From positions 62,001 to 126,000 of the forward strand of contig NZ_JAAIJY010000001.1 of the NCBI RefSeq assembly GCF_011752065.1: 64,000 nt of DNA, given 5' to 3'. Numbering within the stretch: the first letter of the stretch is position 1; every line of letters starts with the position of its first letter. A program made the position numbers and the translations under genes. Positions 41,787 to 61,002 of the stretch are shown in pieces. The notes beneath the pieces are model-generated. The model saw only the letters and a program-made list of their open reading frames with translations, ran no database searches and was not told the origin of the DNA. The stretch is from Actinomyces sp. ZJ308. GTDB lineage: Bacteria > Actinomycetota > Actinomycetes > Actinomycetales > Actinomycetaceae.

Positions 41787-41824
41787 GAGTCTGTGCCTTC
41801 CGTGCCGGGCTCAGGCGAGAGTGC

Positions 41825-42792: not shown

Positions 42793-43437
42793 GTGGCCAC
42801 TCGAATCGCCCCGTCAGCCGACGTCTCCGAGGACGCCACCCTCGGAGAGGGCACCAGCATCTGGCACCTCGCCCAGGTTCGCGAGCACGCCGTCCTCGGC
42901 CGGGACTGCATCGTGGGCCGCGGCGCCTACATCGGTGAGGGCGTGGTCATGGGGGACAGCTGCAAGGTGCAGAACTACGCCCTCGTCTACGAGCCCGCCC
43001 GACTGGCCGACGGCGTCTTCATCGGCCCGGCGGTCACGCTGACCAACGACCACTTCCCCCGGGCCGTCAACCCCGACGGCACGCGCAAGTCCGCCGACGA
43101 CTGGGAGCCCGTGGGGGTCACCATCGACGAGGGCGCCTCGATCGGAGCCCGCGCGGTGTGCGTCGCCCCCGTCCACGTCGGCGCCTGGGCCACGGTCGCC
43201 GCCGGCGCCGTCGTCACCAGGGACGTCCCCGCCCACGCCCTGGTCGCCGGGGTCCCCGCCCGCCGCATCGGCTGGGTCGGGCGCGCCGGTGAGCCGCTCA
43301 CCCCCACCGATCCCGGTCCTGACGGCGTCCAGCGCTGGCGCTGCCCCGTCACCGGGGCCCTGTACCAAGAATCCGGCACCGGGGCCGACGCCGAGTCGGG
43401 CCCCGAGTCCATCACCATCCGAGAGGTCACCCACTGA
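42793..43437 (+). CDS. left-handed beta-helix N-acetyltransferase, WbpD/WlbB-like
   Basis: Predicted to acetylate the 3-amino group of UDP-2-acetamido-3-amino-2,3-dideoxy-glucuronate using acetyl-CoA. Hexapeptide repeats are obvious from residue 8 (ADVSEDATLGEGTSIWHLA, GRDCIVGRGAYIGEGVVMG), with the family motifs KVQNYALVYE and LTNDHFPRA. The GTG at 42793 has AGGAG five bases upstream and gives the conserved beginning MATRIAPSADV; the frame is open farther upstream but the extra sequence is Pro/Arg-rich. The C-terminal 45 residues are a Cys/Asp-containing extension. Stop and next start share one base (TGATG). Confidence 0.85.
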   Translation: MATRIAPSADVSEDATLGEGTSIWHLAQVREHAVLGRDCIVGRGAYIGEGVVMGDSCKVQNYALVYEPARLADGVFIGPAVTLTNDHFPRAVNPDGTRKSADDWEPVGVTIDEGASIGARAVCVAPVHVGAWATVAAGAVVTRDVPAHALVAGVPARRIGWVGRAGEPLTPTDPGPDGVQRWRCPVTGALYQESGTGADAESGPESITIREVTH

Positions 43438-44570
43438 TGTCACGCGAGTTCATTCCCGCCGCCAAGCCGATCATCGGGCAGGAGGAGCGCGACGCCGTCG
43501 ACGCCGTCCTCGCCTCCGGCATGGTCGTCCAGGGGCCCCAGGTCAAGGCCTTCGAGGAGGAGTTCTCCGCCCAGGTCGTCGACGGCGTCGAGTGCGTGGC
43601 CGTCAACTCCGGCACCTCGGCCCAGCACGTGGCCACCCTGGCCAGCGAGCTGGCAGAGCGCGCCGGGGCCGCCCCGGAGGTGATCGTCCCCTCCTTCACC
43701 TTCGCCGCCACCGGCAACTCGGTGGCCATCAGCGGTGCCGTCCCGGTCTTCGCCGACATCGACCCGGTGACCTTCACCCTGGACCCCGCCAGTGTCGAGG
43801 CCTCCATCACCGAGCGCACGGCGGCCATCGAGGTGGTCCACCTCTACGGGCTGCCCGCCAACATGCCCCAGATCCTCGACATCGCCGAGCGCCACGGCCT
43901 GGCCGTCTTCGAGGACTGCGCCCAGGCGCACGGCGCCGCCATCGACGGCAGGCCGGTGGGCACCTTCGGCGCCTGGGGCTCCTTCTCCTTCTACCCCACC
44001 AAGAACATGACCAGCCTCGAGGGCGGCATGATCACGACCGCCGACGCCGAGCTGGCCCGCCGCTGCCGCCTCATCCGCAACCAGGGCATGGAGCAGCAGT
44101 ACGCCAACGAGCTGGTGGGCCTCAACAACCGCATGACGGACGTGGCCGCCGCCGTCGGGCGCGTCCAGCTCGCCAGGCTGGCCGACTGGACCACCGCCCG
44201 CCAGGCCAACGCCGCCCGCCTCAACGCCGAGCTGGCGGGCGTGGAGGGCGTCGTCACCCCCGACGTCCCCGAGGGGTACACGCACGTCTACCACCAGTAC
44301 ACGATCCGCCTGGAGGGGGCCGCGGCCGCCGAGCGCGACGCCGTCCAGGCGGCCCTGCGCGAGGAGTGGCAGGTGGGCAGCGGCGTCTACTACCCCATCC
44401 CCAACCACCGCCTGGCCTCCCTGGCCCACTACGCCGAGGGCCTTGAGCTGCCCGGGACCGAGAAGGCCGCCCGCGAGTGCCTCTCCCTGCCGGTCCACCC
44501 CTCGCTGAGCGAGGCCGACCTGGAGCGCATCGGCCAGGCCGTGGCCGCCACCGTCAAGGCGGGTGCCTGA
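43437..44570 (+). CDS. DegT/DnrJ/EryC1 sugar aminotransferase, WbpE-like
   Basis: PLP-dependent transaminase acting on a UDP-3-keto sugar. The PLP Lys is Lys189 in SFYPTKNMTSLEGGM, preceded by FEDCAQAHGA, whose Asp contacts the pyridine ring. NQGMEQQYANELVGLNNRM is typical of WbpE/DegT enzymes. Length 377. Sits between the matching acetyltransferase and the 3-dehydrogenase, which strongly suggests the three act in series on UDP-GlcNAc uronate. Confidence 0.92.
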   Translation: MSREFIPAAKPIIGQEERDAVDAVLASGMVVQGPQVKAFEEEFSAQVVDGVECVAVNSGTSAQHVATLASELAERAGAAPEVIVPSFTFAATGNSVAISGAVPVFADIDPVTFTLDPASVEASITERTAAIEVVHLYGLPANMPQILDIAERHGLAVFEDCAQAHGAAIDGRPVGTFGAWGSFSFYPTKNMTSLEGGMITTADAELARRCRLIRNQGMEQQYANELVGLNNRMTDVAAAVGRVQLARLADWTTARQANAARLNAELAGVEGVVTPDVPEGYTHVYHQYTIRLEGAAAAERDAVQAALREEWQVGSGVYYPIPNHRLASLAHYAEGLELPGTEKAARECLSLPVHPSLSEADLERIGQAVAATVKAGA

Positions 44571-44571
44571 C

Positions 44572-45642
44572 ATGTGCGAGAACGTCGCCCTCGACGGCCT
44601 GGCCACGACCACAGGCCTGCCCGGTGCCCACTACCTGCCGGACAAGGGCACGGCCGAGACCCCCCTGCGCGTGGGCCTCATCGGCCTGGGCTCCATGGGG
44701 CGCCACCACGCCCGGGTCATCCGCGCCACCGAGGGCATGGAGCTCGTGGCCGTGGCCGACCCCGGCGGTGACCGCTTCGGCGTGGCCGGTGAGCTGCCGG
44801 TCCTGCCGGACGTCCACGCCCTCATCGACGCCGGGCTCGATGCCGCCATGGTGGCCGTGCCCACCGTCTACCACGAGGACGTCGCCCTGGCCCTGGCCGA
44901 GGCGGGCGTGCACACCATGGTGGAGAAGCCCATCGCTCACGACGCCGCCGCGGGTCGTCGCGTGGCCGCCGCCTTCGCCGAGCGCGGGCTCGTGGGCGCC
45001 GTCGGCTACGTGGAGCGCTGCAACCCCGCCCTGCGGGCGCTTCGCGAGCGCCTCGACGCCGGTGAGCTCGGCGAGGTCTACCAGGTCCTCACCCGCCGCC
45101 AGGGCCCCTTCCCGGCCCGCATCAGCGACGTCGGCGTCGTCAAGGACCTGGCCACCCACGACATCGACCTGACCTCCTGGGTGGCCGGCGCCCGCTACAC
45201 CTCCGTGGCCGCGCAGGTCACCCACCGCTCCGGCCGCCAGACCGAGGACATGATGGTGGCCACCGGCCTGCTGGAGGGCGGCATCGTCGTCAGCCACCAG
45301 GTGAACTGGCTCACCCCCTTCAAGGAGCGCATCACGATCGTCACCGGTGAGAAGGGCGCCTTCGTGGCCGACACCCTCACCGGCGACCTCACTTTCCACG
45401 CCAACGGCACCGTGGCCTCCACCTGGGACCAGGTCGCCGTCTTCCGGGGCGTCAGCGAGGGCGACGTCATCCGCTACGCGATCCCCAAGCGCGAGCCGCT
45501 GGCCCTGGAGCAGGAGAGCTTCCGTGACGCCGTGCGCGGCGTGGCCCAGCGCCACGTCACCATGGCCGAGGGCGTGGCCACGCTCGACGTCGTCGAGGCG
45601 GTCCTGACCTCGGCGAGCGAGAACCGGACGGTCGAGCTCTGA
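44572..45642 (+). CDS. Gfo/Idh/MocA family NAD-dependent sugar dehydrogenase (UDP-sugar 3-dehydrogenase candidate)
   Basis: Rossmann motif VGLIGLGSMGRHHARVI begins near residue 34. The catalytic EKPIAHD with Lys, GYVERCNPALRAL and DLATHDIDLTSWV with His/Asp follow. It probably oxidises C3 of a UDP-GlcNAc-type uronate to give the substrate of the preceding aminotransferase. The sequence is closer to the general 3-dehydrogenase group than to Pseudomonas WbpB itself. ATG at 44572 gives 356 residues; GTG at 44563 would add three and overlap the aminotransferase stop. Confidence 0.85.
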   Translation: MCENVALDGLATTTGLPGAHYLPDKGTAETPLRVGLIGLGSMGRHHARVIRATEGMELVAVADPGGDRFGVAGELPVLPDVHALIDAGLDAAMVAVPTVYHEDVALALAEAGVHTMVEKPIAHDAAAGRRVAAAFAERGLVGAVGYVERCNPALRALRERLDAGELGEVYQVLTRRQGPFPARISDVGVVKDLATHDIDLTSWVAGARYTSVAAQVTHRSGRQTEDMMVATGLLEGGIVVSHQVNWLTPFKERITIVTGEKGAFVADTLTGDLTFHANGTVASTWDQVAVFRGVSEGDVIRYAIPKREPLALEQESFRDAVRGVAQRHVTMAEGVATLDVVEAVLTSASENRTVEL

Positions 45643-45668
45643 ACCGCTCGGCCGCACCGGTCGGACCC

Positions 45669-47063
45669 GTGGCGGGGGCGCTCGCCCGGGTCCGCTCGGT
45701 CATGGACTCCTCACCGTTCCTGCGCCATGTCCTGACACTGGTGACGGGCACGGCGGTGGCCCAGGGCGTCACCTTCCTCATGAAGATCGTCCTGGCCCGG
45801 GTCTACACCCCCCACGACATGGGGCTGCTGGGCACCTACATCTCGGTGGCCTCGATCCTGGTGGCGGTCGCCGCGCTGCGCTACGACATGGCGATCATGC
45901 TGCCCAAGCGGGAGTCCGAGGCGCTGAGCGTGGCCCGTCTGGGCATGGTGTGCCTGACGGTGGTCTCGCTGCTGGCCACGGTCCTGTCCTTCCCGCTCAA
46001 CGGTGTCATCACCCGGCAGTGGGGGCACGAGGTGGCCCTGTGGATGCCGATGGTGGGGCTGACCACCTTCCTCATGTCCGGCGTGGAGCTGTTCAAGTAC
46101 TGGTTCAACCGTAACAGCGACTACCGCACGATCGCGGTCAACCAGGCCGAGCAGCAGATCGGCCTGACCGGCGGCCAGTTCATCCTGGGGGTCGCGGGCC
46201 TGGGCGGAATGCCCGGGCTGGTGCTCGGGCACACGGCGGGCCAGCTCTTCGCCTTCGCCAACCTGGGACGCCAGGCCAAGGCCCTGTGGCGCCGGCTTCC
46301 CGAGGGCGCGCCCTCCCTGCGCTGGGTGGCCCGCCGCTACCGGCGCATGCCCCTGCTCAACGGTCCCAACGCCCTGGGGGACGCGCTGCGGACCAACGGC
46401 ATCGCCCTGCTCATCTCGGGCTACTCGGTCTCCTCCCTGGGGCAGTTCCAGATGGCGTGGGGGGTTCTCGACGCCCCGCTCATCCTCATCAACGGCGCCG
46501 TGGCCAGGGTCTTCTTCCAGAAGCTCTCCACGATCGAGCCCGGGCAGATGCGTCCACTGGTCCGGGTCACCATCAGGCGGGCGGTGCTCATCGGGATCGT
46601 TCCCTTCGCGCTCATCTACGTGCTCTCGCCGTGGATCTTCCCGCTGCTGTTCGGCTCGCAGTGGGCCGAGTCCGGGAGCTTCGCCCGCGCGCTGACCCCC
46701 TGGCTGTTCATGATGCTCATCACCTCGCCGATCTCGAATCTCTTCATCGTCACCGAGCACCAGGACTGGATGCTGGGGTTCAACGTCTTCTACACCGCGC
46801 TTCCCCTGGCCTGGCTGTACTGGTCCCCGCTGGACCTGCTGGCCACCTGCTACGTCCTGGGCGCCATGATGGCCGGACTGCTGGTGGCCAACACCGCTCT
46901 GGCCGACCACGCCGCCAAGCAGTTCGACGCCGGCAAGCGCGTGGGCAGCTTCCAGGAGGCGAAGAACCGGGAGAACCGGGAGGGACGCACGAGCCAGGAG
47001 GACGGGCAGGAGGGGGCTGCGTCGTCGGCCGTCTCCGGAGGAGTGGAAGACGACGCGGGCTGA
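45669..47063 (+). CDS. polysaccharide flippase (Wzx/MOP family)
   Basis: Polytopic membrane protein with about twelve hydrophobic helices, predicted to flip lipid-linked oligosaccharides across the cytoplasmic membrane. Typical N-terminus FLRHVLTLVTGTAVAQGVTFLMKIVLARVYTPHDMGLLGTY. The hydrophilic end is Glu/Gly-rich. Start GTG at 45669 is used; ATG at 45702 is an alternative that begins nearer the conserved part. 464 residues. Lies 26 bases after the dehydrogenase gene in the same operon. Confidence 0.88.
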   Translation: MAGALARVRSVMDSSPFLRHVLTLVTGTAVAQGVTFLMKIVLARVYTPHDMGLLGTYISVASILVAVAALRYDMAIMLPKRESEALSVARLGMVCLTVVSLLATVLSFPLNGVITRQWGHEVALWMPMVGLTTFLMSGVELFKYWFNRNSDYRTIAVNQAEQQIGLTGGQFILGVAGLGGMPGLVLGHTAGQLFAFANLGRQAKALWRRLPEGAPSLRWVARRYRRMPLLNGPNALGDALRTNGIALLISGYSVSSLGQFQMAWGVLDAPLILINGAVARVFFQKLSTIEPGQMRPLVRVTIRRAVLIGIVPFALIYVLSPWIFPLLFGSQWAESGSFARALTPWLFMMLITSPISNLFIVTEHQDWMLGFNVFYTALPLAWLYWSPLDLLATCYVLGAMMAGLLVANTALADHAAKQFDAGKRVGSFQEAKNRENREGRTSQEDGQEGAASSAVSGGVEDDAG

Positions 47064-47142
47064 GGACACCTCGGGCACACTGGTTGCGGGTCGTAGCGCC
47101 CACTTGCGACCGGACCCGCCGAACCGGAAGGAAGAGCGAGAG

Positions 47143-48471
47143 ATGACGTCCACCACGCCCCGCAGGTCCGAGACGGAGCCGACTGGTGCGCCTGCCGGTC
47201 GGGGTGGCCGGCAGGGGCCACGCAGCCTGCTCCTGCTCACCGACTTCTACCCCTACGAGGTGGGGGAGGAGTTCCTCGAGCAGGAGATCGAGACGCTGTG
47301 CGCCGCCTACGACGAGGTCGTCGTCGTCCCGGTGCGCCTGAGCGAGGGGGCTCGCCGGACCCGTGAGCTGCCGGCCAACGCCCGCTGCGCCCTGCTCCCG
47401 CCCTCCCGCCTGCCGGACTGGCGCTTCCACGCGGTCCTGCGCGCCCCGCAGATCCTGCTGGGCCGCGAGCGGATGGTGGAGACGCCGCCGTGGAGGAGCT
47501 TCGGGCGCTTCGGGATGGATGTGCGCTTCGCGGCGATCGCCCTGAGCGCCTACAGCCGGATGCGTCGGCTCCTGCCGGGCCTCGGTCTGGAGCGGTCCGG
47601 ACACCTGACCATCTACTCCTACTGGTTCTTCACCGGGGCTGCGCTGGGCGGGATGCTGCGGCGCCGCGAGCTGGCGGGACGTCGGGTCAAGGTCGTCTCC
47701 CGGGCGCACGCCTACGACGTCGACGAGGACGACGCGCCGCGCGGATACGTTCCCTCGCGCCGCTTCGTCATGCGGGCGGTGGACAAGGTCTACCCGATCT
47801 CACGGTACGCGGCCGGCTTCCTGCGCCGCCGCTTCCCGAGTGCGGGCAACATCGAGGTGCGCCGCCTGGGCGTGCCGGCAGCCCCGCGCCACGAGCGGCG
47901 CCGGACCGATCCCTTCCAGCTCGTCTCCTGCTCCCACATGGCCCCCTACAAGCGGGTCCACCTCATCGTGGAGGCCGTCGCCGAGCTGGAGCGGCGCGGC
48001 CGGAGGGTCACCTGGACCCACGTCGGCGAGTTCGACGCCGAGCGCCTGGCCGCCATGCGGGCGCGGGCCGAGGAGCAGATCGCCTCCACCCCGGTCACCT
48101 TCACCGGGCACCTGACCAATGCCGAGGTCCGTGAGCTCTACGCCACCACGGACTTCTCCTGCTTCCTCAACTGCTCCGACGGCGAGGGCGTGCCGGTGGC
48201 CGTCATGGAGGCCCAGGCCGCAGGGCTGCCGGTGGTGGCCACGGCCGCCGGGGGTACCGGGGAGATCGTCCACGACCGTGAGAACGGTCGGCTCATTCCG
48301 GTGGAGACGACCGCCGAGCAGATCGCCGACGCCATCGAGTCCGTCATGGACCTCAGCGATGAGGAGTATGCGGCCATGAGCCAGGACGCGCACTCCACCT
48401 GGGCCCAGATGTCCGACGCCCAGCGCCAGTACCGCGAGTTCGTCGACGGCCTCATCGCCCTTGAGGACTGA
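47143..48471 (+). CDS. family 4 (group 1) glycosyltransferase
   Basis: Retaining GT-B glycosyltransferase acting in the cytosol. N-terminal domain starts at LLLLTDFYPYEVGEEFLEQEI. The C-terminal nucleotide-binding domain has SCSHMAPYKRVHLIVEAVAEL, VTFTGHLTNAEVRELYAT and the EGVPVAVMEAQAAGLPVVATAAGGTGEIV motif with the Glu/Gly pattern of the family. ATG at 47143 chosen because GGAAGAGCGAGAG precedes it. 442 residues. Sugar unknown. Confidence 0.9.
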   Translation: MTSTTPRRSETEPTGAPAGRGGRQGPRSLLLLTDFYPYEVGEEFLEQEIETLCAAYDEVVVVPVRLSEGARRTRELPANARCALLPPSRLPDWRFHAVLRAPQILLGRERMVETPPWRSFGRFGMDVRFAAIALSAYSRMRRLLPGLGLERSGHLTIYSYWFFTGAALGGMLRRRELAGRRVKVVSRAHAYDVDEDDAPRGYVPSRRFVMRAVDKVYPISRYAAGFLRRRFPSAGNIEVRRLGVPAAPRHERRRTDPFQLVSCSHMAPYKRVHLIVEAVAELERRGRRVTWTHVGEFDAERLAAMRARAEEQIASTPVTFTGHLTNAEVRELYATTDFSCFLNCSDGEGVPVAVMEAQAAGLPVVATAAGGTGEIVHDRENGRLIPVETTAEQIADAIESVMDLSDEEYAAMSQDAHSTWAQMSDAQRQYREFVDGLIALED

Positions 48472-48571
48472 ATTCAGGGCGATTTCAATAGTTGAATCAG
48501 CAGGTGATGCCTGTTGATTCGGCGGTGTCGTTCTGCTGGTTGAATCCTGGTAGTCCGGCATGTCCGGAAGA

Positions 48572-48577
48572 TATACT
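48572..48577 (+). promoter_or_regulatory. -10 element TATACT for the AT-rich membrane-protein gene
   Basis: TATACT, closest match to the consensus in this window, six bases before the ATG at 48584. Confidence 0.6.
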
Positions 48578-48583
48578 GTCGTC

Positions 48584-50080
48584 ATGGGAAGACGTAGGAG
48601 TAAGAAGTCTCGGGCGAAGAATAGTGTTGCTCGCTCTCGTCACTACCAGGCTGCCAATAAAAGTGCTAAGAATAAGGAAAAGGCTGAGGTTTCGGCTGAC
48701 AGTGCGACCGGTCGAAGTCGTGAAAGGATGCGTCCGTCAGGGCCTGGGTTTATCAGGACTGCTGTGGGTGTGTCGTTTTGCAGTGCCTTATGTCTTTTTG
48801 TGGTGGGGGTGGTTCTGGTTTTATGGTTGCATGTTTCACCTTTTGATGTCATCGACGAGGCTGGAAAGGGGGATGGTAGAGACACGCATAATCAGGGGTT
48901 CGCTGGTTTTCTTTCGATTTTGGCTGGAATCGCAACGATTGCGCTTGCCTTGAGGGGTATGAGTTGGCAGGTTGATGATTTTCCTGCAGATCCTCGCTTT
49001 CATCGAGCATGGCTGCAGGATGTGCTTGATAAATCCGTTCGAGAAAACGGCGCATATGTCCTGACTATAATTTTGGCGGGTCTGTACGGCGCTGTTGTTT
49101 GTGTCTATGCGATGCTGTCGAAGCATGAGGGCTGGCCAGGGAATAGTAGAGTGCTGCTGATTTTTCTTGGTATGATGTATATTATCGTTTCTGTGTTACC
49201 GGTATTTGTTCGGCGAACTGATTCTGGGGGTTTTCGTGGGTATGCGGTACTTTTGGATGATGTCGCCGCCTTGGCGGAATGGAGGTATGTCAATGGGAGT
49301 GATGGCGCTCTTGACGACTTGGGTGTTAAAGTTTATGAAATTCGATACTACTTGAAACGTATTAAAGGTCTCATGAGAGGGTCGCCTTTAATTCATGTCG
49401 TGAGCGCTTTACCGGGGATGTTGGCTGCGGCGACTTTTTTCTTGAGAGGGTTTTACTGGCAAGGTCTCATCGTTTTAATTTCTTGTGCGTTCTGCATTAT
49501 ATTTTCGTGCTGGCTGTTGCTTCGGGCCGTTGAGTCGAAGGCGGCCGTGATAGCAGACGGCAGAGTGAGTGGAAGTGTGTTTCTTGAGTCTGTAATGCAT
49601 GTGTTCATGCTTCTGGCGCTGTGGATAATATATTATATGCATTCGCCCCACATTTTGCTGTCCTTCCTCTCGTGGAGGCGGTGGTGGATTGTCGTAGTTG
49701 CTTTATTGTTGGTGATTGTATTTATGGTCGTAAGTGCTGTAAGGATGCTGTGTGTGGTTTTCGTGGACTCAAGGCCGCCTGCTTTGGGTGGATCGAAAAT
49801 TGGTTCATCTCTCGAGGGGTTGTTGATCTGTGATGGAGTGCGGCAGGAAGTGGTAAATCAGATTGATGTGGATCTCTTTGATAAAAGACGGCGCCTGAAT
49901 AATTTTGGAGTAACTTCAGGGTTGGATGTCCAGAAATATGAGGCTATTTTAAACCTTGTTATTCCACGGGAATCTCTGATCCAGCGTAATGTCCTGAATG
50001 AGTCGAGCGAAAAGAGGGTGGAATCGATTTATTTGAGGAAGTATCTTCGCGATTCTGTGGGATTGAATTTGCCTCGGTAG
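48584..50080 (+). CDS. AT-rich gene for an unrecognised multi-pass membrane protein
   Basis: I do not recognise this protein. The 498-residue product begins with a very basic Lys/Arg/Ser region (residues 1-50). Eight hydrophobic segments follow at about 57-84, 105-128, 157-178, 189-209, 269-287, 292-313, 332-352 and 367-388, then a soluble C-terminal part of about 100 residues. A charged loop (about 210-268) sits in the middle. Codons are rich in A and T (many ATT, TTT, AAA) in sharp contrast to the flanking genes, indicating recent transfer. Starts at ATG 48584; an upstream GTG-type start at 48560 is possible. Confidence 0.75.
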   Translation: MGRRRSKKSRAKNSVARSRHYQAANKSAKNKEKAEVSADSATGRSRERMRPSGPGFIRTAVGVSFCSALCLFVVGVVLVLWLHVSPFDVIDEAGKGDGRDTHNQGFAGFLSILAGIATIALALRGMSWQVDDFPADPRFHRAWLQDVLDKSVRENGAYVLTIILAGLYGAVVCVYAMLSKHEGWPGNSRVLLIFLGMMYIIVSVLPVFVRRTDSGGFRGYAVLLDDVAALAEWRYVNGSDGALDDLGVKVYEIRYYLKRIKGLMRGSPLIHVVSALPGMLAAATFFLRGFYWQGLIVLISCAFCIIFSCWLLLRAVESKAAVIADGRVSGSVFLESVMHVFMLLALWIIYYMHSPHILLSFLSWRRWWIVVVALLLVIVFMVVSAVRMLCVVFVDSRPPALGGSKIGSSLEGLLICDGVRQEVVNQIDVDLFDKRRRLNNFGVTSGLDVQKYEAILNLVIPRESLIQRNVLNESSEKRVESIYLRKYLRDSVGLNLPR

Positions 50081-51517: not shown

Positions 51518-51523
51518 GGGCCG

Positions 51524-51529: not shown

Positions 51530-51808
51530 CGGGCCGCAGCGGCCGTCCACCCAAGTTCGGATCGGCGGCGGGGGCGCTGGTGTGCCGTATGGGCTGCGCA
51601 ACCAGTGCTCACGTCCGGCCACCTGAGGTGGCGCCGATCAGGCCCGGCGCGACACGACCGGTCGCAGGCGCCGTTGGTGGCCAGGGTGTCCACCCCAGGT
51701 GGATCCGTGCCACCTGACCTCACGGGATTCCAGCGACCATCACGTAGCTCGAACGCGTGCACCGAGCCAGGCCCGCACACGGCCACGCTCCTGCCGAGCG
51801 ATAGGCCC

Positions 51809-51814
51809 TAGCAT
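51809..51814 (+). promoter_or_regulatory. -10 element TAGCAT for the family 4 glycosyltransferase gene
   Basis: Hexamer seven bases before the ATG at 51822. It overlaps the alternative ATG at 51813. Confidence 0.55.
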
Positions 51815-51821
51815 GGGAGGC

Positions 51822-52958: not shown

Positions 52959-52972
52959 GACCGGTCCGGAAC

Positions 52973-53002
52973 GGCTCCCGGACTGGATCCAGTCCGGGAG
53001 CC
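52973..53002. terminator. 30-bp perfect palindrome between convergent genes
   Basis: Arms ggctcccggactgg and ccagtccgggagcc around AT form a 14-pair stem, 15 bases after the glycosyltransferase stop and ten before the opposite gene's stop. Confidence 0.85.
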
Positions 53003-53011
53003 GGCCGGTCT

Positions 53012-54742
53012 CTAGACCGTTGTCCCCGAGTCTCCCGAGGCCGCCTCCAGCTCGGCGGGAGTGGCGACGGGCAGGTCGGTGAACAGCCGGCACCGTCGGC
53101 ACCAGGTGTCGTTGAGGAAGGCGCGCGTCCAGAAGCCCAGGAGCTTGCGCCCACCCATGAGCTGGACGGCCGCCGACGGCAGGGAGGTGTCGGTGATGAA
53201 TGCCTCGAAGGACATGGTCGAGTGCAGCGTCGCCCACGCTGAGAAGGTCCGCTCGGCCAGACCCAGCAGGTGAAGGCGCGACAGCGCGGTCTTGAGCCGT
53301 GAGCGCGTCTCCTCGCTGACCTCGGTGGCGGCGAAGTAGGGCAGGTTGGCGTCCTCGGTGCGCTCGACCGCTCCCGCCCCGGCGCCGTCGGCTAGGGCGG
53401 TCGCCCGGGCCCACAGGCGCGCGATGAAGACCGCGTAGAAGTCCCGCGTGGCCGTCAGCTCCACGGCGCCGCGGTGCCAGGCGCTCCAGAACTCCACGTC
53501 CAGCATGGGCAGTGCCCACTCCAGCCCCAGGTGCTCATAGGCGCGCATGGAGTTGTTGATGTACTTGGTCTGGCGCTCGCGGACGTTGTAGGACTCCAGA
53601 ATGCTCTGCACGTCGCGCGGGCTGCCGGTGAAGGGCCACAGATCCAGAAAGTCCCGGACCTTCGCGGCCCGGTAGGGGTCTGCGTAGGCGCGTCGCTGGT
53701 CCCCCTGGAGCTCCTGGTGGTGGACGAGGATCGCCCTGGCCACCTGACCGCGGGTGACGCGGGGCTCCTCCAGCAGGTGCTCGTCGTGCATGTTGCCCAC
53801 GATCGTGTGCCCCGGCAGGACGACGTCGCCCGGACGCACCACGCCGCTGGCCATGAGGCTGCGCAGGGCGTACCAGTCCTGCACGTGAGGCAGGGCTCCG
53901 AGGGCGTAGCCGTACTCCAGGAAGTCGGCCGCGTCCTGCGTCTGCCAGGCCTCGCGCAGATCGGAGGGAACGTAGTCGACGGCGTGCCACTCCAGGCCCA
54001 CCGCATCGGCCACCTTCCGTGAGACCTCGACCTCCCGCGTACCGGGGCGCCCGTAGGTGAAGGCCACCGCCCTGTCCAGGGCGCCGTGAAGCGTCAGCCA
54101 CGCCACCAGCAGCCGCGAGTCCAGTCCGCCCGACAGGGGCAGCACGAGCCGCGGAGAGCCCGGCCGGGCGGCCAGGTCATCCAGGACCCGGCCCATGCCG
54201 GCGTCGAGCGCCGCCAGGAGCAGGTCGGAGAACTCCTCGGGGTCGACGACCATGTCGGACTCCTCGGAGAACCGTGCCAGGGCGTAACTGGCCGTGCGGG
54301 CCCGGCCGGTGGTGCCGCAGATGCGAACGATCGCGCCCTGCTCGGTCTGGTGAACGCCGACCAGCAGCGTGTCGGTGCCGGAGACGAACCCCGCGTCCAG
54401 GAGCTCGCGGCGCGCGCGTGGATCCAGCCGGGGGTTGCTCAGGGCGTCGCGCATCGCGGTGGCGTCGTCGCTGATGACGAGTCGCCGGCCGCCGTCGGCC
54501 CCGTCCTCAAGGGTCCAGAACAGGGGCCAGGAGCGCAGCCGGTCCTGGGCCAGGACCACCTCATCGTCCTTGATCCGGACGGCGGTCAGGCGCCCCGGGT
54601 GGGAGACGAGGATCTCCGGATCGGTCGGATCGGGGCAGGGTGTGTCGCAACGCACCCACAGAGATCCGGTACTGTCACCCGATGAAGCGGTCTGCTGCCA
54701 CTGCGGACTCGTCAGCCGAAGCTCGACCTCGATAACGCTCAC
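53012..54742 (-). CDS. asparagine synthase-like ATP-dependent amidotransferase lacking the glutaminase Cys
   Basis: The C-terminal half has the PP-loop ATP pyrophosphatase motif SGGLDS (204-209) and other synthetase-domain features. The N-terminal half keeps the outline of a class II glutaminase fold (GFVSGTDTLLVGVHQTEQG resembles the end of that domain). However, the protein does not begin with Met-Cys, so it cannot use the normal N-terminal nucleophile. In O-antigen loci such enzymes (WbpS/WbpG type) amidate uronic acids. GTG at 54742 is preferred (GAGGA five bases upstream); TTG at 54754 adds four residues. 576 residues. Confidence 0.85.
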   Translation of the reverse strand: MSVIEVELRLTSPQWQQTASSGDSTGSLWVRCDTPCPDPTDPEILVSHPGRLTAVRIKDDEVVLAQDRLRSWPLFWTLEDGADGGRRLVISDDATAMRDALSNPRLDPRARRELLDAGFVSGTDTLLVGVHQTEQGAIVRICGTTGRARTASYALARFSEESDMVVDPEEFSDLLLAALDAGMGRVLDDLAARPGSPRLVLPLSGGLDSRLLVAWLTLHGALDRAVAFTYGRPGTREVEVSRKVADAVGLEWHAVDYVPSDLREAWQTQDAADFLEYGYALGALPHVQDWYALRSLMASGVVRPGDVVLPGHTIVGNMHDEHLLEEPRVTRGQVARAILVHHQELQGDQRRAYADPYRAAKVRDFLDLWPFTGSPRDVQSILESYNVRERQTKYINNSMRAYEHLGLEWALPMLDVEFWSAWHRGAVELTATRDFYAVFIARLWARATALADGAGAGAVERTEDANLPYFAATEVSEETRSRLKTALSRLHLLGLAERTFSAWATLHSTMSFEAFITDTSLPSAAVQLMGGRKLLGFWTRAFLNDTWCRRCRLFTDLPVATPAELEAASGDSGTTV

Positions 54743-54837
54743 CGTTGTCCTCAATCCTTTGAAATCCTCTCATCGGTCCGTGAGGCCGAATGCCGCCCGG
54801 TGCCGCGGTGCGTCGGCGCCGCCCGCCGGCGCTCAGT

Positions 54838-54855
54838 GTGTCACAGTCATGACAC
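54838..54855. promoter_or_regulatory. palindrome GTGTCA-N6-TGACAC
   Basis: Perfect 6-base inverted repeat with a 6-base spacer in the divergent gap between the amidotransferase-like gene and the glycosyltransferase at 55025. Operator-like by shape only. Confidence 0.35.
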
Positions 54856-55024
54856 GTGACGCGGATGACGCCCGACGTCGTCCATCGGCCCCCGGCGTTG
54901 CCCGACAATAGAGAAGCGCCCACTGGTTTCCATGGGGCGCGAGATGATCGCTCAGCATCCCGTGGGTTGGAGGTCCTACCCACTGCGGGCCGCCAGGGTC
55001 CATGCACAAGACGGAGGTGACGTC

Positions 55025-56155
55025 ATGAGCGCAGACAGGCTCATGGTCTTCCACGCTCCTTTTCCGCTTCAGCCGGACCGGGTGGCCGCCTCCATGCTGC
55101 GCCCCGTGGCGATGCGTCAGGCCTTCGCCGACCTCGGTTACCGGGTCATGGACGTCACCGGTTACGCCGCACAGCGACGGCGGGCGATGGCGCGGGTGCG
55201 AGCGGCCATCGCTGCGGGCAACAGGATCGAGTTCGTCTACAGCGAGAACGCGACCATCCCCAACGCGCTGACCGAGCCGCGTCATCTCCCGGTCCACCCC
55301 GTGCTCGACGCCGCCTTCTTCCGTCACTGCCAGCACTCCGGCGTGCCCGTCGGCGTCTTCTACCGAGACGTCTACTGGCGCTTCCCCCGCTTCCGCGAGG
55401 GCATCAACCCGCTCCTGGAGGCCGGCCTCCAGGCCGCCTACCGCAGCGAGCTCATGGCCTTCGACAAGGCGGGCCTCCACCTCTTCCTGCCCAGCCGGGC
55501 CATGGCCCGCCACGTCCCGTACGTGGACCCGGCCCGTATGAGCGCCCTGCCGCCCGGGGCGCCCGACGTCGAGCCCCGCGGCGCCCACGACGAGGACGGT
55601 CGCGGCGGCGGGGACCTCGAGCTGCTCTTCGTCGGCGTCCTTCAGGACAACTACCGGCTCGACGCCTGCCTCCGGGCCGTGACCGCCACACCCGGTACGC
55701 GCACCACCCTGTGCGTGCGCCGGGAGACCTGGGAGGCCAGCCGCGACCACTACGCCCCGCTCCTGCCGGCCGGCCGGGCGCAGGTCGTCCACCTCTCCGG
55801 GGCCGAGCTGCTGCCCCTGTACCGGCGGGCCGACCTCGGGGTCCTGTTCACCGAGCCCAACCCCTACTGGGACTTCGCCGTCCCCTACAAGCTCTACGAG
55901 TACCTGGCCCACGAGCTGCCCGTCATCGCCGTGCGCGGGACCCAGGCCGGTCGCCTCGTTCAGGAGATGGGGATCGGCTGGGCCCTGGACTACGACGCCG
56001 ACGCACTGAGTCGCCTGCTGAGCCGCCTGCGGGAGGCTCCCGAGGAGATCGAGGCCGTGCGCCGCCGCATGCGCGCGGTCCTGCCCGGTCAGACCTGGCA
56101 GGCCCGGGCCCGTACCGTGGCCCAGGTCCTGGGCGAGACAGAGAGGAAGCCATGA
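55025..56155 (+). CDS. glycosyltransferase, GT-B fold
   Basis: 376-residue protein: N-terminal domain MVFHAPFPLQPDRVAASMLRP, then C-terminal part with LLFVGVLQDNYRLDACLRAV, YRRADLGVLFTEPNPYWDFAVPYKLYEYLAHELPVIAVRGTQAGRLV. This is a group-1-like nucleotide-sugar-binding arrangement. The ATG at 55025 has GGAGGTG six bases upstream, better than the upstream open frame. The stop overlaps the next glycosyltransferase start (ATGA). Donor and acceptor unknown. Confidence 0.82.
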   Translation: MSADRLMVFHAPFPLQPDRVAASMLRPVAMRQAFADLGYRVMDVTGYAAQRRRAMARVRAAIAAGNRIEFVYSENATIPNALTEPRHLPVHPVLDAAFFRHCQHSGVPVGVFYRDVYWRFPRFREGINPLLEAGLQAAYRSELMAFDKAGLHLFLPSRAMARHVPYVDPARMSALPPGAPDVEPRGAHDEDGRGGGDLELLFVGVLQDNYRLDACLRAVTATPGTRTTLCVRRETWEASRDHYAPLLPAGRAQVVHLSGAELLPLYRRADLGVLFTEPNPYWDFAVPYKLYEYLAHELPVIAVRGTQAGRLVQEMGIGWALDYDADALSRLLSRLREAPEEIEAVRRRMRAVLPGQTWQARARTVAQVLGETERKP

Positions 56156-57387
56156 CCCGGTTCCCACGAGGCGGGGCGCTGCTGGCCACCCGTATCCACC
56201 TGCCCGAGGCCGCCGCCGCCTCCTTCCGGCTCGACGGCGTCGAGCGCGCCCTGGCCCGCCACGGCGTGCCGGTGCGGGCCCTGACCACGACCGTTCCCGG
56301 ACGCGACGGAAGACCGGCCCCGCAGGTCGATGACCCGCAGGGCGTGCGCGTCTCGCGCTGGCCCGCCCTGCGGGACGCCAGCGGCTACCTGCGCGGCTAC
56401 CTGCCCTACCTCTCCTTCGACGTGCCCCTGGCCCTGCGCCTGGGGCTGGCCTCCCGGCCGGATGTCGTCCTGGTCGAGCCTCCGCCCACGACCGGCGTCG
56501 TGGCGCGAACCATCTGTGCGCTGCGCCGTCTGCCCTACGTCTGGTACGCCCCCGACGTGTGGTCCGACGCCGCCGCCTCCACCGGCGCCCCGGAGGCGGT
56601 GGTCCGGGTGGTGCGCACCGCCGAGTCCTACGCGATGCGGGGCGCCAGGTGCGTCATCGCGATCAACGAGGAGGTGGCCGAGCGCGCCCGCGCCCTGGGC
56701 GCCCGCAACGTGGTGGTCGTTCCCAACGGCATTGACACCGACGTCTTCGAGCCCACCGGCGAGCTGCCCTCCGACGAGGAGCGCGCCGAGCTGGGGATCA
56801 CCGGCCCCTATCTCATCTACGCCGGCACTGCGTCGGAATGGCAGGGAGCGGACATCTTCGCCGCCGCGCTGGGGCAGGTGCGGCGCACCCATCCCACCGC
56901 GCAGATCCTCTACATCGGGCAGGGCTCGGACTGGGAGAAGATCGCCCGGGTCGCCTCCACGCTGGCACCCGGCCCCGACGGCGCGCCGGCCGTCGTCATG
57001 CACGGCCTCATGGACGCCGCCGACGCCGCCCGCTGGCAGCGGGGCGCTGCCGCGAGCCTCGTGTCCATCCGTCCGGGTCAGGGCTATGACTTCGCCTACC
57101 CCACCAAGGTGCTGGCCGCCCTGGCCTGCGGGGTGCCGGTGGTCTACGCCGGGGTCGGGCCCGTCGTCGAGGACCTCACCGCCCACGAGCTGGGGTGGGT
57201 GGCCGGCTACACCGAGGACGACGTCGCCCGGGCCATGAGCCAGGCGCTCGACGAGGCCGACCAGGTCGCCGACCATGACATCTCCCGGGCCCGCCGGCTG
57301 CACGCCTGGGTGCGCGACCACCGCTCCCTGCGCGCCACCGGTGAGGCCGTGGCGAGACATCTGCGGACGGTGGTGCGCGGCGCATGA
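56152..57387 (+). CDS. family 4 glycosyltransferase
   Basis: 411-residue GT-B enzyme. DVVLVEPPPTTGVVARTIC and YVWYAPDVWSDAA in the N-terminal domain, VVVPNGIDTDVFEP at the domain junction, and YAGTASEWQGADIFAAAL, QILYIGQGSDW and YPTKVLAALACGVPVVYAG in the donor domain. WbuB-like proteins show a similar pattern. ATG start within the preceding gene's stop; its own stop overlaps the start of the membrane protein gene downstream. Confidence 0.9.
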   Translation: MTRFPRGGALLATRIHLPEAAAASFRLDGVERALARHGVPVRALTTTVPGRDGRPAPQVDDPQGVRVSRWPALRDASGYLRGYLPYLSFDVPLALRLGLASRPDVVLVEPPPTTGVVARTICALRRLPYVWYAPDVWSDAAASTGAPEAVVRVVRTAESYAMRGARCVIAINEEVAERARALGARNVVVVPNGIDTDVFEPTGELPSDEERAELGITGPYLIYAGTASEWQGADIFAAALGQVRRTHPTAQILYIGQGSDWEKIARVASTLAPGPDGAPAVVMHGLMDAADAARWQRGAAASLVSIRPGQGYDFAYPTKVLAALACGVPVVYAGVGPVVEDLTAHELGWVAGYTEDDVARAMSQALDEADQVADHDISRARRLHAWVRDHRSLRATGEAVARHLRTVVRGA

Positions 57388-59597
57388 CCTGGATCGTGAC
57401 CTGGATGTCCGCCCTGCCACTGCTGGTCGCGCTGATCGCCGCGACCTTCGTGCCCGGCTGGCTGCTCCTCGTCGCGGGCGGCGCACGCTTCCGACTGGCG
57501 CGTATCGCCTGCGCCCCGGCACTGACCTTCCTGCTCATGGGGCTGGGGGGAGTCGTCTTCCGCGCACTGGGCGTGTGGTGGCACCTGCCCACCATCATCA
57601 CCTACCTGCTCCTGTGCGCGACGGTCGTCGCCGTGGGGCGCTGGCTGTGGGTCAGACGCAAGGGACAGGTGCTCACCGTGCGCACCTGGTTCGCTCCCGA
57701 ACCGGCGCCGCACGGCTTGCCGGCGCCCACCCCGTACTCCAGCGCCATGGGTGCCCCGGGTGAGCCCGACATGCCCGACACCCGGTCCATCCTGGGGTCC
57801 CAGTGGCTGATGTGGACCGCCGTCGCGGTCACCTGGATCGTCATGATCCTGCCGATCCTGCCCGGCTCCGGGCCCAACATCCCGATCCAGTCCGCCGACT
57901 CCCTCTACCACTACAACCAGGCCTGGCTCATCGAGCACACCGGCAACGCCTCGATGCTCGACGGCAACGCCGGCATGTTCGGGATGGACGGTCACCACTC
58001 CTTCTACCCGATGGTGTGGCACGAGATCGTCACCCTCGCCTCAGTCGGCTGGAACCAGGTGGTCCCGGCCACCAACACCCTCCTGCTCGTGGTGCCTCTC
58101 GTGTGGCTCATCGGCATGGCCTACCTGGCCCGCGTCATCCTCCCGGAGATCCGCGGCTCGGTGTACCTCGTCCTGGGGGCCGGCGCGCTCACCCCGATCT
58201 TCCCCATCCGGCTCCTGACCGACACGGCCGTGTGGCCGTACGCGTTGGCCCTGGCGGCGTGCCCGGCCACCGTCGCCTGGGCGGTGGCCGCCTGGCGCCG
58301 TGCCGCCTGGTTGATCACCGTGGGGCGCCGACGCCGCACGCTCATCGTCCTCGCGGCTCCGGTCGCCGCGGTCATGGGCTCGGTCATCACGCATCCGGCA
58401 ACCGCGATCATCATCGGTTGGCCCCTGGCCGCCGTGGCCTGGATGGGGATCGTCCTGGCCGGGATCCGGGGCCTGCGTCAGCAGGACCGTGCCGCCCGAC
58501 GACGTGGCATCATCCTGCTGAGTGCCGCCATCGTCGTCGTTCTGGCCATCGCCGTCTTCGTCATGGCACCCGGACCGCAGCAGGCGCACTTCGGCAGGCG
58601 CCCCGACCGCAGCTGGGAGCCGTTGTTCGCCAAGCTGGTCATCCCGTTCCTGCTCTACTACGGCGGAGGCGGCTGGGAGATCCGCGCCGCCTACATCATC
58701 ATGGCCTGCCTGAGCGTTCTCGGTGCGCTGCTGGCCTACCTGCGCAGGCACCACCGGGGCATCGTGGTGGCCTGGGTCGCCTGCATGCTGCTGATCCTGG
58801 CGGCGCTGGCCCCGGTCCCCGTCCTGTCGGCCATGACCGGCGTGTTCTACAACAACCCCCACCGGATCAAGGCCATGACGGTGGTCCCCGCGCTCCTCCT
58901 CGTCTCGCTCGGACTGGACGCGCTGATCGGCTGGTTCCTGGCATGGCGGCGTCGGAGGTTCCCGCAGGCCGGTGCCCGTGCTCAGGGCGGCGACGAGAAC
59001 GCCGCGGACGCCCAGCCGCGACGGCTCAGGCACGCGGGGGGATGGGCGTCGGCAGCTCGGCTCATCATGAGCAGCCCCGTCGTCGTCGGAGCACTCGTCC
59101 TCGTCCTGGGGGCCGCCAGCAGCATGTCCGCCGTCAGGGCGGACGTGAGAGGCGCCTTCTCCCCGAAGTACGGACAGTCCCGCATGGTGGCCTCGCCCGA
59201 GGAGATGGCCATGATCACGCGTCTGAGCACTGAGCTCCCCCCGGACGCCTACGTGCTGGGCGACCCCGTGGCAGGCACCGCCATGCTGCCCTTCCTGGCC
59301 GGGCGCAGCCCGGTGTGGATGTTCGCGGGACAGGCGGACAGCGACACCGACGGCCTGTACCTGCGCACGCACTTCCGCGACCTCCACTTCGATCCGCAGG
59401 TGTGTGAGATCGTGCGCCGCCATGGCATCACCCACTTCTACAGCGACGAGCCGCAACGCTTCAACGGTGTGAACAACCAGAAGCTGCGCCCGGGTCTCTA
59501 CGACGTCGACGTCTCCAGCGGGTTCACCCTCGTGGACCGGGGCGGGTCCGCGGCCGTCTACCGCATCGACCTGTGCTGGCCCTCCGGGGAGCAGTAG
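57384..59597 (+). CDS. large polytopic membrane protein, DUF6541-like
   Basis: 737 residues with about 14 hydrophobic helices and two hydrophilic stretches. Marked motifs: ADSLYHYNQAWLIEHTGNASML and FYPMVWHEIVTLA. The C-terminal domain after the last helix (about residues 590-737) is soluble and contains DAYVLGDPVAGTAMLPFLAGRSPVWM. The layout is that of actinobacterial DUF6541 proteins, thought to be membrane glycosyltransferases or polymerases. Translationally coupled to the preceding glycosyltransferase by ATGA. A paralogue follows two genes downstream. Confidence 0.8.
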   Translation: MTWIVTWMSALPLLVALIAATFVPGWLLLVAGGARFRLARIACAPALTFLLMGLGGVVFRALGVWWHLPTIITYLLLCATVVAVGRWLWVRRKGQVLTVRTWFAPEPAPHGLPAPTPYSSAMGAPGEPDMPDTRSILGSQWLMWTAVAVTWIVMILPILPGSGPNIPIQSADSLYHYNQAWLIEHTGNASMLDGNAGMFGMDGHHSFYPMVWHEIVTLASVGWNQVVPATNTLLLVVPLVWLIGMAYLARVILPEIRGSVYLVLGAGALTPIFPIRLLTDTAVWPYALALAACPATVAWAVAAWRRAAWLITVGRRRRTLIVLAAPVAAVMGSVITHPATAIIIGWPLAAVAWMGIVLAGIRGLRQQDRAARRRGIILLSAAIVVVLAIAVFVMAPGPQQAHFGRRPDRSWEPLFAKLVIPFLLYYGGGGWEIRAAYIIMACLSVLGALLAYLRRHHRGIVVAWVACMLLILAALAPVPVLSAMTGVFYNNPHRIKAMTVVPALLLVSLGLDALIGWFLAWRRRRFPQAGARAQGGDENAADAQPRRLRHAGGWASAARLIMSSPVVVGALVLVLGAASSMSAVRADVRGAFSPKYGQSRMVASPEEMAMITRLSTELPPDAYVLGDPVAGTAMLPFLAGRSPVWMFAGQADSDTDGLYLRTHFRDLHFDPQVCEIVRRHGITHFYSDEPQRFNGVNNQKLRPGLYDVDVSSGFTLVDRGGSAAVYRIDLCWPSGEQ

Positions 59598-59617
59598 CGC
59601 GGCGAGTGAGGCAGGAC

Positions 59618-59638
59618 GCCCGGCCGCCGGCCGGGCGA
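59618..59638 (+). terminator. GC-rich hairpin after the first DUF6541 gene
   Basis: cgcccggcc/ggccgggcg around GCC, without T run. Confidence 0.6.
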
Positions 59639-59652
59639 CGTGAACGAACGAG

Positions 59653-59658
59653 TATGGT
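59653..59658 (+). promoter_or_regulatory. -10 element TATGGT before the UDP-sugar dehydrogenase gene
   Basis: Hexamer 39 bases before the ATG at 59698. The leader contains the GGAAGGA ribosome site, so this gene is leadered, unlike many neighbours. Confidence 0.45.
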
Positions 59659-59697
59659 GGACCCGCCACGCCAGAAGCCACGGAAGGACCAACCCGC

Positions 59698-61002
59698 ATG
59701 CGCATCGCCGTCGTCGCCCTGGGCAAGATCGGACTGCCCCTGGCCGTCCAGTACGCAGACAAGGGCCACGAGGTCATCGGGGTCGACGTCAACCCCGCCG
59801 TCGTCGAGGCCGTCAACGCCGGCACCGAGCCCTTCCCCGGGGAGGCCCACCTGGCCGAGAAGCTCGCCGAGCTCAGCCCCGCCACCGGCAACGGCGCCCT
59901 GCGCGCCACCACCGACTACGCCGAGGCGATCCCCGACGCCGACGCGATCGTCCTGGTCGTACCGCTGTTCGTCGACGATGCCACCTGGGAGCCGGACTTC
60001 GCCTGGATGGACGACGCCACCCGCTCCCTGGCCGCCCACCTGACCCCGAACACCCTCATCTCCTACGAGACCACCCTGCCCGTGGGCACCCTGCGGGGCC
60101 GCTTCAAGCCCATGATCGAGGAGATCAGCGGCTTGAGGGAGGGCGCCGACTTCCACCTCGTCTTCAGCCCCGAGCGGGTTCTCACCGGCCGCGTCTTCGC
60201 CGACCTGCGCCGCTACCCCAAGCTCGTGGGCGGCCTGGACGAGGCCGGCACCCGGGCCGGCATCGCCTTCTACGAGTCCGTCCTCGACTTCGACGAGCGC
60301 GACGACCTGCCGCGCCCCAACGGCGTGTGGGACATGGGCACCGCCGAGGCCGCCGAGATGGCCAAGCTCGCCGAGACCACCTACCGCGACGTCAACATCG
60401 GCCTGGCCAACCAGTTCGCCGTCTACGCCGACAGGGCCGGCTTCGACATCGAGCGCGTCATCGAGGCCTGCAACTCCCAGCCCTACTCCCACATCCACCG
60501 CCCCGGCATCGCGGTGGGCGGGCACTGCATCCCGGTCTACCCGCGCCTGTACCTGTCCACCGACCCCGATGCCTCAGTGGTGCGCACCGCCCGTACCTTC
60601 AACGCCACGATGCCCGCCTACGTGGTGGGCCGGGCCACCGAGGTGCTCGGCTCGCTCGAGGGCCTGCGCGTCGTCGTGCTGGGCGCCTCCTACCGCGGCA
60701 GGGTCAAGGAGACCGCCTTCTCCGGTGTCTTCCCCACCGTGGAGGCCCTGCGCGAGGCCGGCGCCGAGGTCCTCGTCCACGACCCCATGTACACCGACGA
60801 CGAGCTGGCCGGCTTCGGCTGGACCCCCTACCACCTGGGGGAGCAGGTCGACGTCGCCATCGTCCAGGCCGACCACCCCGAGTACCGCGAGCTCACCCCC
60901 GCCGACCTGCCCGGGCTGCGCCTCCTCCTGGACGGGCGCCGCGCCACCGACGCCTCCAGGTGGACCGGCGTGCCCCGCCTGACCATCGGCGGAGGCGAGT
61001 GA
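59698..61002 (+). CDS. UDP-glucose/GDP-mannose dehydrogenase family (UDP-N-acetylhexosamine 6-dehydrogenase candidate)
   Basis: Four-electron NAD-dependent oxidation of a UDP-sugar C6 hydroxyl to a uronic acid. N-terminal MRIAVVALGKIGLPLAVQYA is the NAD motif, although the third Gly position is Ala-Leu-Gly-Lys. SYETTLPVGTL and FSPERVLTGRVF follow, and the catalytic Cys277 is in VGGHCIPVYP. Length 434. WbpA/WecC-type proteins that oxidise UDP-GlcNAc or UDP-ManNAc have this pattern. Lies between the two DUF6541 genes. Confidence 0.92.
   Translation: MRIAVVALGKIGLPLAVQYADKGHEVIGVDVNPAVVEAVNAGTEPFPGEAHLAEKLAELSPATGNGALRATTDYAEAIPDADAIVLVVPLFVDDATWEPDFAWMDDATRSLAAHLTPNTLISYETTLPVGTLRGRFKPMIEEISGLREGADFHLVFSPERVLTGRVFADLRRYPKLVGGLDEAGTRAGIAFYESVLDFDERDDLPRPNGVWDMGTAEAAEMAKLAETTYRDVNIGLANQFAVYADRAGFDIERVIEACNSQPYSHIHRPGIAVGGHCIPVYPRLYLSTDPDASVVRTARTFNATMPAYVVGRATEVLGSLEGLRVVVLGASYRGRVKETAFSGVFPTVEALREAGAEVLVHDPMYTDDELAGFGWTPYHLGEQVDVAIVQADHPEYRELTPADLPGLRLLLDGRRATDASRWTGVPRLTIGGGE

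Follow-up and report, generated by a model that had tools for sequence, protein, structure and literature searches.

Five enzyme genes of Actinomyces sp. ZJ308, located in the 64,000-nucleotide stretch of DNA analyzed here (the window; positions 62,001 to 126,000 of contig NZ_JAAIJY010000001.1, from a 3.28-Mb genome assembled into 80 contigs), raise the question of which nucleotide sugar they make and in which order the steps of its synthesis occur. Judging from the encoded proteins, it is very probable that they make UDP-2,3-diacetamido-2,3-dideoxy-mannuronate (UDP-ManNAc3NAcA) from UDP-N-acetylglucosamine (UDP-GlcNAc), and that this sugar goes into a wall polymer resembling teichuronic acid, in line with the proposal made for the Utr system of Streptomyces griseus. 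With distinctly less confidence, we favor a neutral-first order, in which amination and acetylation at C3 would be followed by oxidation of C6 and then by epimerization. The order of the steps is the part worth following, and the data described below open it to a direct test.

The genes are predicted to encode (i) a hexapeptide N-acetyltransferase, WlbB/WbpD-like and UtrJ-like (AcT; 42793–43437, plus strand, GTG start), (ii) a UtrA-like DegT/DnrJ/EryC1 sugar aminotransferase (AT; 43437–44570, plus strand, ATG start; PF01041, 383 bits), (iii) a UtrB-like Gfo/Idh/MocA UDP-sugar 3-dehydrogenase of the GnnA/archaeal type (DH3; 44572–45642, plus strand, ATG start), (iv) a WbpI/UtrH-like non-hydrolysing UDP-sugar 2-epimerase (EPI; 50435–51517, minus strand, 50435 being the stop end), and (v) a UtrD-like UDP-N-acetyl-sugar 6-dehydrogenase (DH6; 59698–61002, plus strand). 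A previous reading of the letters without database searches (the sequence-only reading) had claimed a full enzyme set within 18 kb. All five open reading frames (ORFs) exist, together they cover 18.2 kb, and their Pfam and NCBIfam family assignments are far above chance. Its description of three genes as adjacent, overlapping or within two bases of each other was also accurate: AcT and AT overlap by 1 base and a single base lies between AT and DH3. Because of this spacing, AcT-AT-DH3 look like one operon. In 20 neighborhoods picked from the 105 genomes of the order that carry DH3, AT adjoined DH3 in every case and AcT adjoined AT in 19.

The identity of the product depends most on EPI. Its nearest relative among solved sequences is 8sxv, a UDP-GlcNAc3NAcA 2-epimerase (349 bits), while 1f6d, which we take to be WecB of Escherichia coli, scored 134 bits; in a direct comparison, EPI and E. 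coli WecB were 33.5% identical. In the Thermus thermophilus UDP-GlcNAc3NAcA 2-epimerase, three changes have been linked to the substrate, namely Trp307 instead of an Arg found in UDP-GlcNAc epimerases, Ala18 instead of Leu/Met, and Tyr96 instead of His/Gln (PMC10622841). EPI retains Trp307 and Tyr96, i.e. two of the three named changes, as well as the catalytic residues. Among 28 strong-class homologues that could be aligned (29 loci were tried, and one was dropped as it was cut off at its end), both residues were present in 28/28. Where a WecB-type enzyme has an Arg contacting the C3 hydroxyl, EPI has Trp; this Trp is absent from E. coli WecB, from all five weak-class epimerases tested, and from the WecB that the source genome encodes on another contig (53% identical to the E. 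coli enzyme, with Arg at the diagnostic place), and Arg also occupies the position in 6/6 epimerases of the next-nearest class. Since EPI is closest to a UDP-GlcNAc3NAcA 2-epimerase and keeps the Trp signature, UDP-ManNAc3NAcA appears well supported as the product, in agreement with the sequence-only reading, which had proposed a set for this sugar in a surface-glycan locus.

A second epimerase class (six loci, L209–L214; 40–48% identical), which might have belonged to a competing Wbp-type system, was rejected: because Arg is present at the diagnostic place in 6/6, these enzymes probably do not epimerize the ManNAc3NAcA precursor. These proteins share an NTERPV motif (6/6) and have Asn at the Gln14 place. 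A 6-dehydrogenase (33–38% identical) is located nearby, and no DH3 was found within the 20 kb at these six loci; two genomes containing this class (G137 and G161) carry DH3 elsewhere.

For AcT, the best PDB sequence is 3mqg, titled as a lipopolysaccharide biosynthesis acetyltransferase and presumably WlbB, with 114 bits versus 82 for the next. DH6 matches the NDP-sugar dehydrogenase subfamily model TIGR03026 above its cut-off (288 bits), and its translation contains GGHCIP; the best equivalog models are UDP-ManNAc dehydrogenases, all below their cut-offs. The genome encodes two other full members of the 6-dehydrogenase family; their identity to E. coli WecC is 27%, and they contain GFGGGCLPKD, a motif that we take to be of the UDP-glucose dehydrogenase type. 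The label WbpE-type, given to AT by the sequence-only reading, proved weak, as the nearest solved relative is an Archaeoglobus veneficus transaminase (7b0d, 263 bits) and WbpE (186 bits) ranks ninth, behind 7b0d, 2oga, 3bn1 and others. No more follows from this likeness than that, by sequence, AT has nearer relatives than WbpE.

DH3, in turn, was said to be more distant from WbpB than the other enzymes are from their counterparts, and the comparisons support its being unlike WbpB, with WlbA of Bordetella and Chromobacterium standing for the Wbp/Wlb side (WbpB of Pseudomonas aeruginosa is not among the matches listed in the sequence and fold comparisons). Among solved structures, GnnA (7bvj) scored 87 bits and WlbA (3q2k) 54, and with a family profile the values were 101.7 and 76.8 bits. 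The best NCBIfam model is NF040723, an archaeal UDP-GlcNAc 3-dehydrogenase (198 bits); none of the other Gfo/Idh structures and models among the matches listed came as close to DH3 as GnnA and NF040723. Namboori and Graham are said to have reported in 2008 that the archaeal 3-dehydrogenases act on UDP-GlcNAc; otherwise, this activity rests on the name of the NCBIfam model. To look for a link with the WlbA-type enzymes, a more divergent DH3 (L099) was compared as well, and it too was nearest to GnnA (109.6 bits versus 54 for WlbA).

Structure comparison, which the sequence-only reading had recommended, was carried out with models of DH3 (mean predicted local distance difference test score, pLDDT, 72.6) and AT (mean pLDDT 70.8). 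The folds were matched against PDB chains, and as a guide to candidate substrates the comparison failed, since these were not separated: the Z scores of the 50 matches listed were confined to 31.8–35.0 for DH3 and 31.7–35.0 for AT. The top match of AT was PseC (Z 35.0), with WbpE at Z 32.4.

The distribution of the genes bears on the order of the steps. DH3 was found in 105 of the 297 genomes of the order, covering 16 family labels and 44 genera. The scores of DH6 and EPI were two-peaked, and strong classes, present in 99 and 81 genomes, respectively, were set post hoc: for DH6, the lowest member (a piece of a split gene in G200) has 459 bits and the next class at most 193 among the matches listed; for EPI, members have at least 359.7 bits, plus two fragments with 74 and 69% identity (G126 and G055), again among the matches listed. 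DH3 and DH6 co-occurred in 96 genomes, DH3 and EPI in 77, EPI and DH6 in 80, and all three in 77 (Fisher values for these counts ignore relatedness). With their starts at most 20 kb apart on one contig, DH3 and DH6 were found in 73 genomes, DH3 and EPI in 60, and EPI and DH6 in 67. In the order genomes at least 97% complete, a limit picked after the data were seen, the gene sets were strictly nested (DH3 in 93, DH6 in 85, EPI in 68): DH6 never occurred outside DH3 and EPI never outside DH6. The exceptions dropped by this limit are DH6 without DH3 in G228, G250 and G295 (73, 72 and 92% complete; all three with EPI) and, in G126 (89% complete), an EPI fragment without DH6 or DH3. Of the 49 genomes of the genus, 43 contain DH3; the genomes with DH6 are the same ones, and 40 of them also contain EPI.

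Nine DH3 genomes lacked a strong DH6, and six of them were scanned for the 6-dehydrogenase family with PF00984. In G270 and G273, each with a completeness rating of 100%, no match was detected at E values up to 0.001; the other four contain further members of this family (two in G231, one in G073, three each in G085 and G207). In both G270 and G273 the AcT, AT and DH3 ORFs are open and of normal length, i.e. the trio is intact. Judged by 100 alignment columns that hardly vary among 51 other close rows, DH3 of G273 shows no deviation, whereas DH3 of G270 deviates in three columns, with Ile for Val in two and Ala for Leu in the third. In a tree of 70 DH3 rows (G231 and G273 were each entered twice, three rows containing stops were left out, as was G030, another genome without DH6; DH6 was scored for rows of the order, the other rows being unlabelled), the rows without DH6 required five label changes, at least four of them forced by well-supported branches; the placement of G073, G032 and G139 is weak. 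Because of these changes, the DH3 rows without DH6 are, on this tree, not one specialised branch.

A separate observation concerns G231 and G273, in which a distinct 2-epimerase directly adjoins the AcT-AT-DH3 trio (L047, approx. 8721–9810; L190, from approx. 11000). This protein is 31% identical, with Thr at the Arg12 place and Ser at the Trp307 place; we speculate that it would suit a neutral 3-acetamido sugar, possibly in a UDP-ManNAc3NAc branch.

What the sequences show directly is that the genes are present, form an operon in the case of the trio, belong to the families named, co-occur across genomes and, for EPI, carry the signature; from this we infer the substrates, their order of conversion, the polymer and its attachment. 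DH3 would oxidize UDP-GlcNAc at C3, AT would aminate the C3-oxidized sugar, and acetylation by AcT would yield UDP-GlcNAc3NAc; DH6 would then oxidize C6 to give UDP-GlcNAc3NAcA, and EPI would invert C2 to give UDP-ManNAc3NAcA. Glycosyltransferases and a flippase would assemble and export the polymer, which an LCP (LytR-CpsA-Psr) protein would attach to the wall. We favor this order because DH3 resembles enzymes titled UDP-GlcNAc 3-dehydrogenase, because the gene sets are nested as they should be in a route that proceeds from DH3 through DH6 to EPI, and because two genomes hold the intact trio without a PF00984 match. The same three observations support the earlier suspicion that the order of the steps could differ from that of the Wbp series.

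Several points weigh against this interpretation. The score of DH3 with NF040723 lies below the cut-off of that model (450 bits), and the fold does not separate GnnA (Z 33.2, root-mean-square deviation 2.4, 296 aligned residues) from WlbA (Z 33.4, 3.5, 313), the two being tied. Position 18 of EPI is Leu instead of Ala, so that one of the three substrate-linked changes is absent; Leu is found in 24/28 strong-class homologues, with Ala in the four most distant. The genomes are related, which means that the counts are not independent, and the completeness limit was a post hoc choice: a 90% limit would admit one exception, G295, with DH6 and EPI and without DH3 (its assembly has 360 contigs, with DH6 on a fragment). 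The imbalance between DH3 without DH6 (nine genomes) and DH6 without DH3 (three) is small. The trio in the genomes lacking DH6 might be idle, or its substrate might have shifted after DH6 was lost, and in G139, which has a diverged DH3 (48%) and AT, AcT was not found. The authors of the work on Streptomyces griseus propose a Wbp-like route (PMC13274773). Finally, the substrates and the glycan of this organism are predictions from its genes.

The classical Wbp order, in which DH6 would first form UDP-GlcNAcA and DH3 would oxidize this acid at C3 before amination, acetylation and epimerization, is the rival to be taken most seriously, although we consider it unlikely. It requires the same five activities, it ends on a substrate of the class to which EPI belongs, and it is similar to the pathway proposed for S. 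griseus (PMC13274773). Against it stand the sequences of DH3 and AT, whose nearest relatives are not WlbA and WbpE, the intact trio in G270 and G273, which have no PF00984 match despite their completeness rating of 100%, and the absence of any DH6-class gene without DH3 from the order genomes at least 97% complete.

Two further readings concern the product. The locus could serve two separate sugars, with EPI and DH6 making UDP-ManNAcA in the manner of WecB/WecC and the trio making neutral UDP-GlcNAc3NAc; the ability of the trio to exist without DH6 agrees with this, as do the equivalog models closest to DH6, if their cut-offs are set aside. We regard this as very improbable, given the Trp of EPI at the place of the WecB Arg, the separate WecB of the source genome, and the 19 order genomes that keep DH3 and have DH6 without EPI, in which DH6 is independent of the epimerase. 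Alternatively, the final sugar could be the gluco form, GlcNAc3NAcA, with EPI acting on another substrate. One such residue is present at the base of the S. griseus polymer (PMC13274773), and an EPI-class gene is absent from 19 of the 96 genomes with DH3 and DH6; set against these are the open ORF of EPI, its UDP-GlcNAc3NAcA class and its presence in 40 of the 43 DH3-bearing genomes of the genus, and we consider this possibility very improbable.

Returning to the route with C3 before C6, we lean slightly towards a wider proposal, that this is how actinobacteria arrive at their diacetamido-uronic wall sugar, with a dedicated 6-dehydrogenase between the trio and the epimerase, and that lineages can stop at the neutral, the gluco-acid or the manno-acid stage. 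If true, this would be the opposite order to the Pseudomonas route, in which C6 oxidation comes first (PMC10622841), and to the S. griseus proposal, and a ladder of three wall chemistries would be readable from genomes: if the nesting holds, a genome tells which sugar (GlcNAc3NAc, GlcNAc3NAcA or ManNAc3NAcA) a strain can make.

The region containing the five enzymes, together with glycosyltransferases, a flippase and LCP genes, looks like a wall-polymer locus. A Wzx-like polysaccharide flippase gene (45669–47063, plus strand; PF13440) starts 26 bases 3′ of DH3. Upstream of AcT lie genes for a GalE UDP-hexose 4-epimerase (36299–37288, plus strand; TIGR01179, 348 bits, over the cut-off of 262), which possibly supplies a second sugar, for two LCP proteins on the minus strand (37385–38887, PF03816, 142 bits, a possible glycan-to-wall ligase; 38903–40165, PF03816, 158 bits) and for a GT2 glycosyltransferase (40285–41337, plus strand; PF13641, 52 bits). 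GT4 glycosyltransferases are encoded on the plus strand at 47104–48471 (PF00534, 93 bits), 51699–52958 (PF13692, 66 bits) and 56152–57387 (PF13439 and PF13692 on ORF 55711–57387, the start being set at the ATG at 56152), and a GT4-like one, with a weak PF13524 match, at 54932–56155. The plus-strand ORFs 37343–38611, 38672–39646 and 41909–42586 were rejected as antisense shadows of minus-strand genes (two LCP and one GT2), and ORF 56330–57238 as a shadow of the GT4 gene read in the wrong frame.

We also observed that this one locus combines a PpgS-like polyprenyl-phosphate GT2 and a DUF2304 protein with two DUF6541 proteins. The first pair is on the minus strand within 41361–42541 (DUF2304 at 41361–41786, PF10066, 79 bits; the GT2, resembling polyprenyl-phospho-GalNAc synthase, at 41825–42541, PF00535, 86 bits, and NF058614, 264 bits, below its cut-off of 370). 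The two DUF6541 polytopic membrane proteins are on the plus strand (57384–59597, PF20176, 392 bits; 61034–63097, 363 bits) and could be membrane glycosyltransferases drawing on a lipid-linked sugar. Between the flippase side and EPI, a plus-strand gene for a 506-aa protein (48560–50080) has a GC content of 47.6% within a 70% GC locus and eight transmembrane-like stretches, and gave no Pfam, NCBIfam or plasmid match. It is matched in 9 of the 49 genus genomes, itself counted, the best other match (37% identical) being in G721, where DH3 and EPI, 98 and 99% identical to those of the window, flank the same slot. It has the appearance of a variable slot whose content has been exchanged and which may hold a polymerase or another type-determining membrane gene. 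A 580-aa protein encoded on the minus strand (53012–54754) shows weak asparagine-synthase/QueC-like similarity and has homologues, 31–38% identical, in 4 of the 20 neighboring loci.

The sequence-only reading had called a diacetamido-uronic acid unusual for the group, a view contradicted both by the frequency of DH3 in the genus and the order and by its relatives elsewhere. DH3 was present in 23 of 396 genomes in a sample of the phylum, and the best 80 of at least 563 candidate loci in named genomes are mainly from Streptomyces, with others from Micromonospora, Actinomadura and further genera; in these 80, some of them cut short, the flanks contain AT (80/80), DH6 (68, including one 36% match, L169, and one fragment, L177), EPI (45) and AcT (36). 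ManNAc3NAcA has been identified by nuclear magnetic resonance (NMR) in the wall polymer of S. griseus, and a polymer containing this sugar serves as a receptor for Streptomyces umbrella toxins (PMC13274773). It has also been identified by NMR in the wall and matrix (biofilm) polysaccharide of Cutibacterium acnes (PMC6598116); in a partial literature search we found no report of diamino-uronic sugars in Actinomyces walls. Because of the Utr-type loci of Streptomyces and the sugar in these two walls, neither the sugar nor the gene set is new for actinobacteria, and the window is a further member of a known and common pathway. With the C. acnes polymer, the likeness is between sugar chemistry there and genes here.

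With the P. aeruginosa WbpA-B-E-D-I series and Bordetella Wlb, the window shares the activity set and the predicted nucleotide sugar. All five activities are encoded together, by family assignment, both sequence and signature place the epimerase in the UDP-GlcNAc3NAcA class, and the acetyltransferase is closest to WlbB/WbpD, if 3mqg is WlbB. The window differs in DH3, nearer to GnnA than to WlbA, and in AT, nearer to the Archaeoglobus transaminase than to WbpE, and probably in the order of the steps. The nearest solved relative of EPI, the T. thermophilus UDP-GlcNAc3NAcA 2-epimerase (PMC10622841), has Ala18 where the window has Leu and Lys245 where the window, like 28/28 strong-class homologues, has Ala. 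GnnA of Acidithiobacillus ferrooxidans and the archaeal UDP-GlcNAc 3-dehydrogenases are the closest relatives of DH3 among solved structures and NCBIfam models, and GlcNAc3NAcA is established in archaeal glycans (PMC2952790); unlike in those systems, DH3 of the window type is accompanied by an acetyltransferase and usually also by DH6 and EPI, which would lead on to the acid.

The closest counterpart is the Utr system of S. griseus (utrA, B, D, H and J; PMC13274773), which has the same five enzyme types, with AT adjoining DH3. The polymer that characterizes the Utr-type pathway consists of ManNAc3NAcA and GalNAc and is attached to a ribitol teichoic acid. The utr genes are described as arranged in utrA-E and utrF-J, and this description fits Streptomyces loci such as L102 of S. 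humidus, since these read AT-DH3-gap-DH6-GalE followed by EPI and AcT on the opposite strand. Through loci of this layout (S. griseus itself being compared by description), homologues of utrA, B, D, H and J were recognized in the one locus of the window, the identities to L102 being 59% for AT, 59% for DH3, 68% for DH6, 60% for EPI and 64% for AcT. DH6, GalE, EPI and AcT are nearby in both; in the window, unlike the Utr layout, AcT heads the AT-DH3 operon, and the genes for the flippase, the DUF6541 proteins and the LCP proteins are located nearby.

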